Origin: Verrucomicrobiota bacterium
GTDB lineage: Bacteria > Verrucomicrobiota > Verrucomicrobiia > Chthoniobacterales > JAFAMB01
Reading direction: 5' to 3'
DNA length: 50,005 nt
NCBI GenBank assembly: GCA_019247695.1
Contig: JAFBAP010000134.1
Coordinates: 1 to 50,005, forward strand
Positions within the stretch are counted from its first letter, which is position 1; each line of letters begins with the position of its first letter. Positions 17,712 through 49,953 of this stretch are shown one piece after another. Below the pieces are notes generated by a model, which saw nothing but the letters and a program-made list of their open reading frames with translations, made no database searches and had not been told where the DNA came from. The position numbers were made by a program, and so were the translations under genes.

Positions 17712-17769
17712 GTCGGAAATCTAGAATAAACAACTGCAAATTGCAGATACCAAAATTGCGCCGGGGGTC

Positions 17770-18202
17770 GGTCACACGGCGGGCACGGCGTAAGAGTTCA
17801 CACGGCGAACACGGCGGGCCACGGCGACCACGGCGGAAAGAGGAGGAGTTCGGAGTTCGGAGTTTGGGGTTCGGAGCGGCAGCATGGGGGTTGGGTGCGA
17901 GTGTCAAACTTAGAGTTGCGGCCGGGTCCTCTTGATCTGTGTCAATCTGCGTAATCTGTGGATGTTTTCTCTTTTCTGCGTTCTTCTGCGTGTTCTGCGG
18001 ATGATTCTGTCTTTTCGCCGTGTTCGCCGTGGCCCGCCGTGTTCGCCGTGTGAACTCTTACGTGGTGCCCGCCAACCCCGCCGTGTCACCGAACTCCGAA
18101 CTCCGAACTCTTCCTCTTCCGCCGTGGTCGCCGTGGCCCGCCGTGTTCGCCGTGTGAACTCTTACGTTGTGCCCGCCAACCCCGCTGTGCCCGCCGTGTG
18201 AC
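17770..18202. repeat. Family B composite inverted-repeat element
   Basis: The left arm (17770-17878) reads GTCACACGGCGGGC, then GTAAGAGTTCACACGGCG, CACGGCGG units and GTTCGGA heptamers. The right arm (18090-18202) is its inverted copy, ending CCCGCCGTGTGAC. A second partial right arm lies at 18017-18089. The centre has CTGCG/TTCTGCG-rich text including TCTGCGTGTTCTGCGG. The predicted proteins in this region are repeat translations, not genes. Copies occur at 36088-36520 and, partially, at 1-114 and 49842-49953. Confidence 0.9.
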
Positions 18203-36087: not shown

Positions 36088-36520
36088 GTCACACGGCGGC
36101 CACGGCGATCTGGCGGGCACCACGTAAGAGTTCACACGGCGAACACGGCGGGCCACGGCGAACACGGCGGGAAGAGGGAGAAGGGGAAAGGGTTCGGAGT
36201 TCGGAGTTCGGGGTTCGGGGTTCGGAGCGGCAGCATGGGTGCCGGCCATCCGTGTCAAGTTCGGGATTTCTGGATCCGTTTCTGCGTTCGTCTGCGTGTT
36301 CTGCGGATGATTCCGTCTTCCCGCCGCGTTCCGCCGAAAGATTGGATCCAGTCATAGGACGTCTCCGAGCTCCGAACCCCGAACTCCAAACTCCGAACTC
36401 TTTCCTCTTCCCGCCGTGGTCGCCGTGGCCCGCCGTGTTCGCCGTGTGAACTCAGTCGTTGTGCCCGCCAGATCGCCGTGTGACCGTGTGAACTCTTACG
36501 TGGTGCCCGCCGTGTGACCG
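36088..36520. repeat. Family B composite inverted-repeat element
   Basis: Left arm 36088-36229 (GTCACACGGCGGCC, then GTAAGAGTTCACACGGCG, CACGGCGG units, TTCGGAG heptamers) and right arm about 36362-36520 in inverse orientation, ending CCCGCCGTGTGAC (36506-36518). The centre repeats the TCTGCGT-TCTGCGTGTTCTGCGG text of the element at 17770-18202. It fills the gap between the LuxC-like gene and the gene at 36568. Apparent reading frames here are repeat translations. Confidence 0.9.
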
Positions 36521-36525
36521 AGCCC

Positions 36526-46195: not shown

Positions 46196-46477
46196 CTAGG
46201 GCTTGCGAGTGCGAACTTTTTCTTTCTTTTGATCGCACTCTTCCTGCAGGCGGCGAAGCTCCGAGGCCAGCTGGTGCTTCAGCTGTGCGACGTCATCAGC
46301 GGACCCGGCCTGTTCCTCGCGCCGGATCTGCTCTTTCAGCAACAGTTCTTTTTCAGCCATCTTTGACCGGTAAAGCGAATCGATCTCTGCAAGCTGCGCT
46401 TTTTGCTCCTCGGTCAGGGGAACCGAAGGAGATTGCTTTTGCAGGCGCTCCATGGCGAGTTCGTAAGCTGATTTCAT
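46196..46477 (-). CDS. Small coiled-coil protein next to dop
   Basis: A 93-residue, highly charged, all-helical protein (LTEEQKAQLAEIDSLYRSKM, AEKELLLKEQIRREEQ, LASELRRLQEECDQKKEK). It starts 41 bp after the dop stop on the same strand and is therefore likely in the ARC-dop operon. It is not Pup or UBact: the C-terminus is VRTRKP, not a GGQ/GGE-type tail. The length and helix pattern could suit an adaptor or coiled-coil partner of the ARC N-terminal coiled coil, which is speculation. Confidence 0.8.
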   Translation of the reverse strand: MKSAYELAMERLQKQSPSVPLTEEQKAQLAEIDSLYRSKMAEKELLLKEQIRREEQAGSADDVAQLKHQLASELRRLQEECDQKKEKVRTRKP

Positions 46478-46518
46478 AAGGTCAAGGTCTGCGTTGGGAC
46501 AACCGGCGTGTTACGCCG

Positions 46519-48045
46519 TTACGGCTGCTCGATCTTCTGGAGCCGCCGGATCAGGTCGCTATAGTTAGCCGCATCGCGGATCGTCGCATTCAAGCGCGTA
46601 AGCCGTGGATCGTCTGAAGCGTGATTGAACGAGACCCGGTGCTGCTGGCCGTCCTGGGCAAACACGACTTCATCCCAATGAATGGTTTGAATGTGGGGAT
46701 TGAAACGTGCGACCGCGCGTCCACGGAAGAAGGCCCGGGTTGATTCCGGCGGGTTGAAAATTGCGGTCTTGATTTCTTCCTCCCGGAGAACCCGGCGCAT
46801 CCGTTCCTCTCGCACCAGCTCGTAGTGGAGCCCCTGTTCCCAGGCGATGTTGTGGTACTCGAGGTCAATGGACTGCAACCAGGGATCCGTCCAATCCAGT
46901 TTTTCTTCTTCCTGAAACGTGGTGAGCAAGTACAACTTGGCCGCCCAATCGATGCGATCGGCGCAGCGCATGACATCGACCTCGAGGTCGTTCAGAATTT
47001 TTTCCCATTCGGTCAACAGCCAATCGACCTCACGGTCAGTCCGGTCGCAGTACCGCAGGGCCTTTTCCAGGTACATGCGTTGGATCTCGATGGCCGAAAT
47101 CTTGCGCCCGTCTTTAAGCTCGATGATCCAGGAATGGCTCTGATCACGGCTGATCGACTTGGTGGCATCAATCGGCTGGGCTACTTCCAGCTGAGGCGCT
47201 TCCCGTTTTTCAATCAAGTCGAGCACGAGCGACATGATACCGATCTTGAGGGCAATCGCGAATTCACTCATGTTCGAGTCACCGATGATCACGTGAAAAC
47301 GCCGGTATTTGCCCGGATCAGCGTGCGGTTCATCGCGCGTATTGACGATGGGCCGGCGGTTCATCGTGTCGATGCTCACCAGGACGCTGAAGAAGTCGGC
47401 CCGCTGCGAAATCTGATAAATTCCGGGCTGGCCGGTCGCGCCTTCGCCTTCAATGCCGAGCTTGCCGGCACCGGCGTAGATCTGGCGGGTGATAAGAAAA
47501 GGCACCACCTCAGAAACGAGCCGGTCCCAGGGTACGGCGCGGCTCATGAGGTAGTTATCGTGGCAGCCGTAGCTGTGCCCGATAAAATCGGTATTGTTTT
47601 TGTAAAGACGAACTTCGCGCTCGGGGGCGATCTTTTTGTTCCGACGCCGGACGCACTCGGCGAGGATTCGCTCGCCGGCCTTATCCTGGGCGATGATCTC
47701 TCGCAAGGTGGTGCATTCGGGGGTCGAGTACTCCGGATGGGCGTGATCGTTGTAGAAGCGCGCCCCGTTGCTCAACACCAGGTCACTCTTGATCTCCTCG
47801 AAGCTGAGCGGCCGGTTTTTATCCAGTTCGTAATAGGCCGACTCGTCCGTATCCTGCATGAGGGTTTCGGCCCGAAACCCCCGTGCATCCTGATGGGGAT
47901 CCTCAAGGTTGTAGTCCCATTTCATCAATGCACCGTGTTCCGTGTAGCAGCGCACCAACTCAATCGATTCAGCTACCACGTCGACGGTTTCAACCCCGTT
48001 AACCGTAATGCCGTATTCCGTCTCGATCCCAAAAACGCGCTTCAT
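46519..48045 (-). CDS. dop: Dop, depupylase/deamidase of prokaryotic ubiquitin-like protein
   Basis: 508 residues of the carboxylate-amine ligase-like Dop/PafA family. Dop removes Pup-type tags or deamidates their C-terminal Gln. Evidence for Dop over the ligase PafA: the Dop-loop text KWDYNLEDPHQDARGF (about 42-57), catalytic Asp100 in NDHAHPEYSTPEC, and C-terminal DWAAKLYLL and STRAFFRGRAVARF. Metal/nucleotide residues Glu8 and Glu10 (GIETEYG), NTRDEPHADPGKYRR and HVIIGDSNMSE are intact. It lies 36 bp after ARC. No Pup, PafA or PrcA/PrcB gene is visible in the window. Confidence 0.95.
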   Translation of the reverse strand: MKRVFGIETEYGITVNGVETVDVVAESIELVRCYTEHGALMKWDYNLEDPHQDARGFRAETLMQDTDESAYYELDKNRPLSFEEIKSDLVLSNGARFYNDHAHPEYSTPECTTLREIIAQDKAGERILAECVRRRNKKIAPEREVRLYKNNTDFIGHSYGCHDNYLMSRAVPWDRLVSEVVPFLITRQIYAGAGKLGIEGEGATGQPGIYQISQRADFFSVLVSIDTMNRRPIVNTRDEPHADPGKYRRFHVIIGDSNMSEFAIALKIGIMSLVLDLIEKREAPQLEVAQPIDATKSISRDQSHSWIIELKDGRKISAIEIQRMYLEKALRYCDRTDREVDWLLTEWEKILNDLEVDVMRCADRIDWAAKLYLLTTFQEEEKLDWTDPWLQSIDLEYHNIAWEQGLHYELVREERMRRVLREEEIKTAIFNPPESTRAFFRGRAVARFNPHIQTIHWDEVVFAQDGQQHRVSFNHASDDPRLTRLNATIRDAANYSDLIRRLQKIEQP

Positions 48046-48081
48046 GCAGGGGGCGTAGCTGGCTGGATAACTTAGCAGGTC

Positions 48082-49773
48082 TCAGATAACGTCTGAAATG
48101 GACGCGGATTTGGCGCCGGCACGAACTGGCAGGACGCGCACAACGTTCTCGGAATCATAGTCGATTAACTTCAGCCAGTCTTCGACGATGTCGGTTGGCG
48201 GAAAAATATCATTGTTTGCGTACTCGGTCGCGAGCGCCACGAGCATGTCGGACTCACTGATGCCTTCCTCTTGCGAGGAGCCGATGGCGCGTTTGATGGT
48301 TAGTTCTTTCGCTCGTTCGACGATCGAGGCGATGATGGCACCGCTGACCAGGTCGCCCCGGTAGAGAACGTCCTTTTTACCGCTCCGAAGCGTTACTTCG
48401 AGGAATTTGTTGTCCTCACGGCGGTTGAATTGCGTGTCAACGGTTTTATCGACCAACTGCTGAATCGCCGCCGACACATCGCCGCTCTTGGCGACGAGCG
48501 CAGGGTCGTACGGAAGATCTTCCGTGAGGTAGATCTTGTAGATTTCGCGGGCCGATTCCCGATCCGGCCGGTTCACCTTGATCTTACGGTCGATGCGTCC
48601 CGGTCGCAGGATAGCCGGGTCGATCAGGTCGGCCCGGTTCGAGGCCAGGATAATCACGATTTCATTGAGCGACTCGATGCCGTCCATCTCGGTGCAGAAC
48701 ATCGGCACCAGCGTGGAAAGAATGTTGGAATGGCGTCCGGCGCGGCGCGTGCCCAGGATGCTCTCGGCCTCATCAATGAAGATAAAGGGCAGATAACCCT
48801 GTTTGCGCTTCTCACGCGCCGTCGCAAAGATCTCGCGAACCATCCGCTCCGACTCGCCGACCCACATGTTCAGGATTTCGGGCCCCTTAATGTGCATGAA
48901 GAACTGCTGCATGTTCTCGCCGGTTTTTTCGGTGAGTTGGCGCGTCAGGTTGTACGCCGTCGCCTTACCAATCAGGGTCTTGCCGCACCCCGGCGGCCCA
49001 TAAAGCAGGAAGCCTTTCGGGGTCTGATGGTGGAACCGGGCAAACAGGTCAGCATGCAACAGGGGAAGTTCGATCGCATCCTTGATGGCCGTGAGCGCCG
49101 GTTCCTGGCCGCCCACTTTCGTCCAGGGGATCTCGGGTACCGATTCGAGGTAATAATCCTGCGTTTGCGACTGGCTCAAGACCTCGATGGCCACGCGGTA
49201 ATTCGTGTCTACGCGCACCTCGTCGCCAACTTTGAGATTGGCCTTGAGCAGGTCCTGGGCACGCTGCAGCACAACCGACTGAACGCCGTGCTCGGTGCCC
49301 ACCCGAAGGCGGTCGCCGCTCAGGATCTCGGTAATTTTTGTTACGGGCCCGCTGAGATCATAGCCCAGATCCCCGACGATCACGTACGCCTCGTTCACGA
49401 GTACCCGGGTGCCCTTTTTCAATTTGGCAAGATTGATCCGCGGATCAGCGTTGCAATAATAATCGGAGCCGCCCACGACAATCTGGGCAGTCTCCTTATT
49501 AGGGCTGCCGAGGTACGTACCAATACGATTCGCGGGTGAGGTCACCTTTTTGATCACCTCATCGAGCTTTTCGATCGTCTGCCGGGCCTCAGCGATCATC
49601 TCTTCCTGCTCAGCCACGCCGGACCGGAGGTCGATCAGTTCACTTCGGATGGGGTTACCCGGAGGAAGGCTCGCAATGAGCCTTTCGATCATGTTAAGCG
49701 GTGATGCGGGATCGGAACCAAACCCACCAAAGCCTAGCGCGCTGTCGTCATTCATGTCGTACTTCTTAGTCAC
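48082..49773 (-). CDS. AAA+ proteasomal ATPase ARC (Mpa-like)
   Basis: A 563-residue ring ATPase that unfolds tagged proteins. It has an N-terminal coiled coil (about 48-78), tandem OB domains (about 80-205: AQIVVGGSDYYCNADP, LRVGTEHGVQSVVLQRAQ) and an AAA+ domain with Walker A GPPGCGKT (259-266), Walker B FIFIDEAESIL, and ILRPGRIDRKIKVNRPDRES. Translation probably starts at GTG 49773 behind GAGGAG; the ATG at 49755 is an alternative. Unlike actinobacterial Mpa it ends in SISDVI without the QYL-type proteasome-docking tail. It heads the ARC-dop-small gene cluster. Confidence 0.95.
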   Translation of the reverse strand: MTKKYDMNDDSALGFGGFGSDPASPLNMIERLIASLPPGNPIRSELIDLRSGVAEQEEMIAEARQTIEKLDEVIKKVTSPANRIGTYLGSPNKETAQIVVGGSDYYCNADPRINLAKLKKGTRVLVNEAYVIVGDLGYDLSGPVTKITEILSGDRLRVGTEHGVQSVVLQRAQDLLKANLKVGDEVRVDTNYRVAIEVLSQSQTQDYYLESVPEIPWTKVGGQEPALTAIKDAIELPLLHADLFARFHHQTPKGFLLYGPPGCGKTLIGKATAYNLTRQLTEKTGENMQQFFMHIKGPEILNMWVGESERMVREIFATAREKRKQGYLPFIFIDEAESILGTRRAGRHSNILSTLVPMFCTEMDGIESLNEIVIILASNRADLIDPAILRPGRIDRKIKVNRPDRESAREIYKIYLTEDLPYDPALVAKSGDVSAAIQQLVDKTVDTQFNRREDNKFLEVTLRSGKKDVLYRGDLVSGAIIASIVERAKELTIKRAIGSSQEEGISESDMLVALATEYANNDIFPPTDIVEDWLKLIDYDSENVVRVLPVRAGAKSASISDVI

Positions 49774-49841
49774 TCCGCTCCTCGAGTATAATCGGATTCG
49801 ATTCGTCTAGCAAACCTTCGGCGTTTGGGGGAGCTATTTCT

Positions 49842-49953
49842 GTCACACGGACGGCACAACGACAGAGTTCACACGGCGAACACGGCGAGCCACGGCGACC
49901 ACGGCGGGAAGAGGGGGAAAGAGTTCGGCGTTCGGGGCTCGGAGTTCGGAGGC
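49842..49953. repeat. Family B repeat, left-arm copy near window edge
   Basis: GTCACACGGACGGC then GAGTTCACACGGCGAACACG, CACGGCGG units and TTCGGAG-like heptamers, in the left-arm order of the elements at 17770 and 36088. The right half is not visible within the window. It lies about 70 bp upstream of the ARC gene, so ARC promoter elements would have to lie between 49774 and about 49841 or within the repeat. Confidence 0.85.

Follow-up and report, generated by a model that had tools for sequence, protein, structure and literature searches.

The ARC-dop gene pair analysed here is very probably one third of a complete UBact-proteasome system, the genes of which are dispersed over three loci of the same genome. 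This explanation is supported by six intact genes, their catalytic signatures, their co-occurrence, their parallel divergence and the dispersal of the loci throughout the lineage. The system is thus of a known kind, its layout is dispersed as is typical of the order Chthoniobacterales, and it displays one testable motif, located at the C-terminus of ARC. With this, the false lead of a tagless or proteasome-free Dop-ARC system is removed. Pup-like tags together with the proteasome were already reported in Verrucomicrobia in 2008 (PMC2588565, PMC2474590), and the proteasome subunits of the Gram-negative Armatimonadetes, Nitrospirae and Verrucomicrobia form a branch of their own (PMC5666114).

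The ARC-dop gene pair

The window, i.e. the whole stretch of DNA that was analysed (50,005 bp), corresponds to the entire contig C134 of a genome assembled in 191 contigs (5.19 Mb, 96.7% complete, 2% contamination). The following features were considered:

46196-46477, minus strand: conserved 93-aa ORF located 41 bp downstream of dop, a bystander outside the system
46519-48045, minus strand: dop, predicted UBact deamidase/detagging enzyme (508 aa, uninterrupted)
47746-47748, minus strand: codon of Asp100 of Dop
48082-49773, minus strand: ARC, proteasome-type AAA ATPase (563 aa, GTG start, uninterrupted)
48085-48090, minus strand: codons for Val-Ile-COOH, the final two residues of ARC, a conserved [VI][VI] tail in place of the GQYL of Mpa

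The original prediction of an intact and clustered ARC and Dop was confirmed, both frames being uninterrupted and separated by 36 bp. The span that had been assigned to the feature (46196-49773) holds for these two genes, but its start takes in the unrelated 93-aa ORF. The family search identified PF17758 (67 bits), PF16450 and PF00004 in ARC, corresponding to the OB domains and the AAA module, and the closest solved structures were chains of Mpa from M. tuberculosis (7ljf, 7px9, 5kwa). The product of 46519-48045 matched PF03136 with 551 bits and was assigned to Dop rather than PafA (TIGR03688 with 489 bits vs TIGR03686 with 391 bits). It aligned to the Dop structure 4b0r with an E-value of 3e-120 and contains the 33-residue Dop-loop. 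Asp100 aligned with position 94 of 4b0r, the catalytic Asp of Acidothermus Dop (PMC8599861), and its equivalent is invariant across Dop and PafA.

The remaining genes of the system

A search of the 50-kb window with PF03136 gave a single match, Dop itself, and no PafA, while the searches for PrcA/PrcB and UBact gave matches solely on other contigs. The prediction that no Pup or UBact, PafA or PrcA/PrcB gene would be seen in the window was therefore correct. Searches of the same genome for PF03136, proteasome and UBact genes recovered the missing parts on contigs C148 and C161, in agreement with the proposal that they are scattered. Contig C148 carries prcB and prcA, overlapping by 4 bases, and immediately upstream of prcB a 58-aa ORF with the C-terminus RTGQ. 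This ORF scored 84.1 bits with NF033388 (cut-off 35) and 80.6 bits with PF20513 (cut-off 27.8), the curated families from which the name UBact is taken for the tag; the Pup model (TIGR03687/PF05639 type) was absent from its family matches. The alternative proposal of a different tag was thus not upheld, as the tag is an ordinary UBact.

In PrcB, Thr44 aligned to the mature catalytic Thr1. PrcA is divergent, but its profile matched PrcA of M. tuberculosis (E-value of 2e-18), as did its AlphaFold2 model (mean pLDDT 75, pTM 0.77; E-value of 1e-12). The second PF03136 gene of the genome, on C161, scored 331 bits with the PafA model against 307 bits with the Dop model, and its product lacks the 33-residue Dop-loop. 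The source genome therefore holds two PF03136 paralogues, one Dop-like with the loop and one PafA-like without it. The complete six-gene set is distributed over three loci, namely ARC-dop (C134), UBact-prcB-prcA (C148) and pafA (C161). That C148 or C161 could be foreign to this metagenome-assembled genome (MAG) is argued against by the presence of the same gene set in most relatives.

Five of the proteins score under the cut-offs of the actinobacterial equivalogs, in bits: Dop 489 (cut-off 492), ARC 467 with TIGR03689 (curated cut-off 505), PafA 331 (551), PrcB 177 (192) and PrcA 61 with TIGR03691 (139). As expected, these scores fit a divergent branch, and they do not by themselves prove the same activity as in the actinobacterial Pup-proteasome.

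A proteasome-free remnant, in which ARC remodels proteins and Dop detags them without a 20S or a ligase, was also considered, as the window holds no other gene of the system and a few genomes of the order have Dop or ARC but no UBact. For the source genome this reading is refuted by the presence of UBact, PrcB, PrcA and PafA, both 20S subunits being there with the catalytic Thr in place. Moreover, the UBact-less Dop/ARC genomes form no clade: completeness is 76-89% for G114, G173, G185 and G188, contamination amounts to 7% in G165, and PrcB is present in G039. Both the proteasome-free and the alternative-tag readings were rejected on the basis of the genome searches that found UBact, prcBA and pafA, and the former is considered extremely improbable.

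Separation of the loci across Chthoniobacterales

An order-wide survey was done with 197 genomes of Chthoniobacterales. UBact was detected in 99 of them, PrcB in 101, PF03136 in 105 and the OB domain of ARC in 93. UBact and prcB were adjacent (within 1.5 kb) in 98 out of 98 cases, while dop and UBact were never located on the same contig (0/87). Linkage of pafA was counted in 57 listed genomes: among these, none of the 48 with both dop and pafA had them on a shared contig, and UBact and pafA lay within 10 kb of each other in 3 out of 53, one of which is G138. The spacing between ARC and dop (n=86) was within 5 kb in 47 genomes and 5-11 kb in 10, and the two genes were on different contigs in 29.

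The source assembly itself is compatible with an artefact, in which a normal single operon was broken at contig ends and its genes merely look separated: the assembly consists of 191 contigs, of which C134 stops 232 bp upstream of ARC, near a high-copy repeat. However, no UBact, prcBA or pafA was found within up to 8 kb around dop in the named relatives (Spartobacteria, Chthoniobacter, Udaeobacter and other Verrucomicrobia MAGs), where dop is mostly accompanied by ARC. In the well-assembled genome G008, UBact lies 360 kb into a contig of 846 kb, dop 140 kb into one of 371 kb and pafA 53 kb into one of 110 kb; the three loci of G019 are similarly deep inside different long contigs. In these long-contig genomes the separation of the loci is certain. 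A contig-break artefact was rejected on these long contigs and on the named relatives, and it is judged highly improbable. The three-locus split is lineage-wide and normal for Chthoniobacterales.

Iyer et al. (2008) described the tag gene as invariably adjoining a gene of the PafA family (PMC2588565), a rule to which Chthoniobacterales is an exception. About half of the sampled genomes of the order have the UBact system; in none of these is the tag gene close to dop, and only rarely is it near pafA. The UBact system can thus be inherited as a unit even though its genes are unlinked.

Several deviating genomes were observed in the survey. A second prcB located away from UBact was found in G014, G040, G059 and G071, which belong to one genus of the family; in one example (L227) neither prcA nor UBact is nearby. 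Genome G023 (L223), 96% complete, has an unusual 73-aa glycine-rich UBact with prcB and prcA, and neither a PF03136 gene nor ARC was found in it. Two UBact genes are present in G004 (C5:125 and C227:16653), one of them without a prcB match on its contig. Finally, ARC and Dop form a single continuous frame of 1034 aa in L049 / L222 (G154:C66), possibly an ARC-Dop fusion that has lost the ARC tail, in one MAG; the single frame may also result from an assembly deletion.

Ancestral arrangement and co-inheritance

In family f16 of the same class, which is inferred to be of the Methylacidiphilum type, the genes form a single run ARC-dop-UBact-prcB-prcA-pafA. The same run was found in a named Verrucomicrobiia record (L056), and in L058 the run extends from dop to pafA, with ARC on another contig. 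The UBact system of Methylacidiphilum-type Verrucomicrobiota shares with the source genome the six genes, the G[QE] end of UBact, the divergent PrcA and PrcB and the [VI][VI] end of ARC; it differs by its single run instead of three loci. The actinobacterial Pup system (Mpa/ARC, Dop, Pup, PrcB, PrcA, PafA) has a homologous ATPase, homologous Dop/PafA enzymes and 20S, and a tag ending in G[QE]. In contrast to the source genome, which has UBact, no GQYL and three loci, it uses Pup as a tag, its ARC ends in GQYL and its genes are in one locus (PMC8223512). Since the Methylacidiphilum-type genomes of the same class hold one run, a compact layout as in Actinobacteria, the dispersed layout in Chthoniobacterales is most simply regarded as derived. 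Single-locus clustering is a common arrangement and not a requirement for function.

Comparison of the synteny of ARC and dop in relatives thus gave a split throughout the 197-genome order and a single run in Methylacidiphilum-type genomes. The split locus, which had been considered the unusual point, is indeed so when compared with Actinobacteria and with Methylacidiphilum-type relatives, but not within the order. The original prediction had taken a UBact/Pup, pafA and prcBA operon of normal synteny elsewhere in the genome as evidence against it; the genes were found, but not as a single operon.

Pairwise distances of the six proteins in 16 genomes were strongly correlated (r 0.85-0.97), and none of 999 permutations gave values as high. 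Within the order the correlations ranged from 0.44 to 0.94, with the lowest values for the short UBact. This parallel divergence, which a single co-inherited system would be expected to show, supports joint vertical inheritance of the six proteins and, alone, not their physical interaction; it also follows from simple vertical inheritance.

The C-terminal tail of ARC

Mpa of M. tuberculosis docks on the 20S via its C-terminal GQYL (PMC8223512, PMC12288473). The ARC of the window ends in SDVI. In Verrucomicrobiota, all 60 distinct tails of UBact-type ARCs end in [VI][VI]-COOH after a variable linker, and none of them has an aromatic residue in the last three positions. The entropy of the last two positions was 0.57 and 0.47 bits, compared with about 2-3.3 for most of the preceding linker. 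Such tails were noted at loci L007-L061, L216-L218 and L234-L236, and two ARCs of Armatimonadota from genomes with UBact terminate in TIV and TVI. Two candidate exceptions were rejected as not being true tails: the ARC of L038 is frame-broken and that of L049 was read as one frame with Dop. Among the Pup-type ARCs (Actinobacteria, KSB3 and the UASB270 record), 12 out of 13 have GQYL at the end; the only one without it (L074) has no PrcB in its locus.

In a published model, a lysine of the alpha-subunit pairs with the C-terminal motif of the activator (PMC12288473). In UBact-type PrcA, K49 is invariant (11/11) and aligns with the lysine in the QKISELYDR segment of PrcA from M. tuberculosis, suggesting that it is the same pocket lysine. 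By this alignment, a pocket lysine for the carboxylate of the activator is common to the Pup-proteasome and to the source PrcA. The likeliest reading of the [VI]-[VI] end is a putative docking tail that lacks the aromatic residue. From the sequences, there is about an even chance that UBact-type ARCs dock on and open the 20S by a non-aromatic hydrophobic [VI]-[VI]-COOH instead of GQYL/HbYX, with a retained lysine in the alpha pocket, and that the types of tag and tail changed together at the split of the UBact and Pup branches. No paper describing the tail of UBact ARC was found in the open literature, which was covered in part, and the motif may be new. The invariant tail offers a cheap and concrete test of the need for an aromatic penultimate residue in the activation of bacterial proteasomes.

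Proposed working of the system

All the biochemical steps proposed for the UBact system are transposed from the homologous Pup system. The C-terminal Gln of newly made UBact would be deamidated to Glu by Dop, with D100 as the equivalent of the catalytic Asp. PafA would then couple the Glu of UBact to lysines of the substrate. The tagged protein would be captured and unfolded by ARC, which is predicted to dock on the PrcA ring via its conserved [VI]-[VI] carboxy-terminus, not via GQYL, and the substrate would be degraded by PrcB. Dop could also take the tag off. Among close relatives the C-terminal residue of UBact is Q in 39 and E in 15 cases (n=54); given this mix, deamidation would be dispensable in some genomes.

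The 93-aa ORF and a dispersed repeat

The 93-aa ORF that trails dop by 41 bp was evaluated for a role in the system, either as a different tag or as an adaptor, as it sits at the position occupied by UBact in intact operons and its sequence is kept with 67-69% identity in three relatives. However, it has no G[QE] end, and a true UBact is already present in the source genome on C148. The ORF was found in 161 of the 197 genomes of the order, many of them without Dop or UBact, and it adjoins dop only in family f1. Since it is frequent in genomes that lack the proteasome and seldom adjoins dop, a role as tag or adaptor was rejected and is very improbable.

A dispersed intergenic repeat, made of a GTTCACACGGCGAACACGGCG... 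module and arrays of the 7-bp unit TCCGAAC, was observed in the window at the following positions and also at L005:11740-11890:

1-126: dispersed repeat
17768-18189: dispersed repeat
36102-36525: dispersed repeat
49839-49918: dispersed repeat

It occurs close to both ARC and pafA, but the idea that it specifically caused these genes to separate was not supported, as the repeat is genome-wide, with at least 45 matches and 427 first-look candidates, several of them at contig ends.
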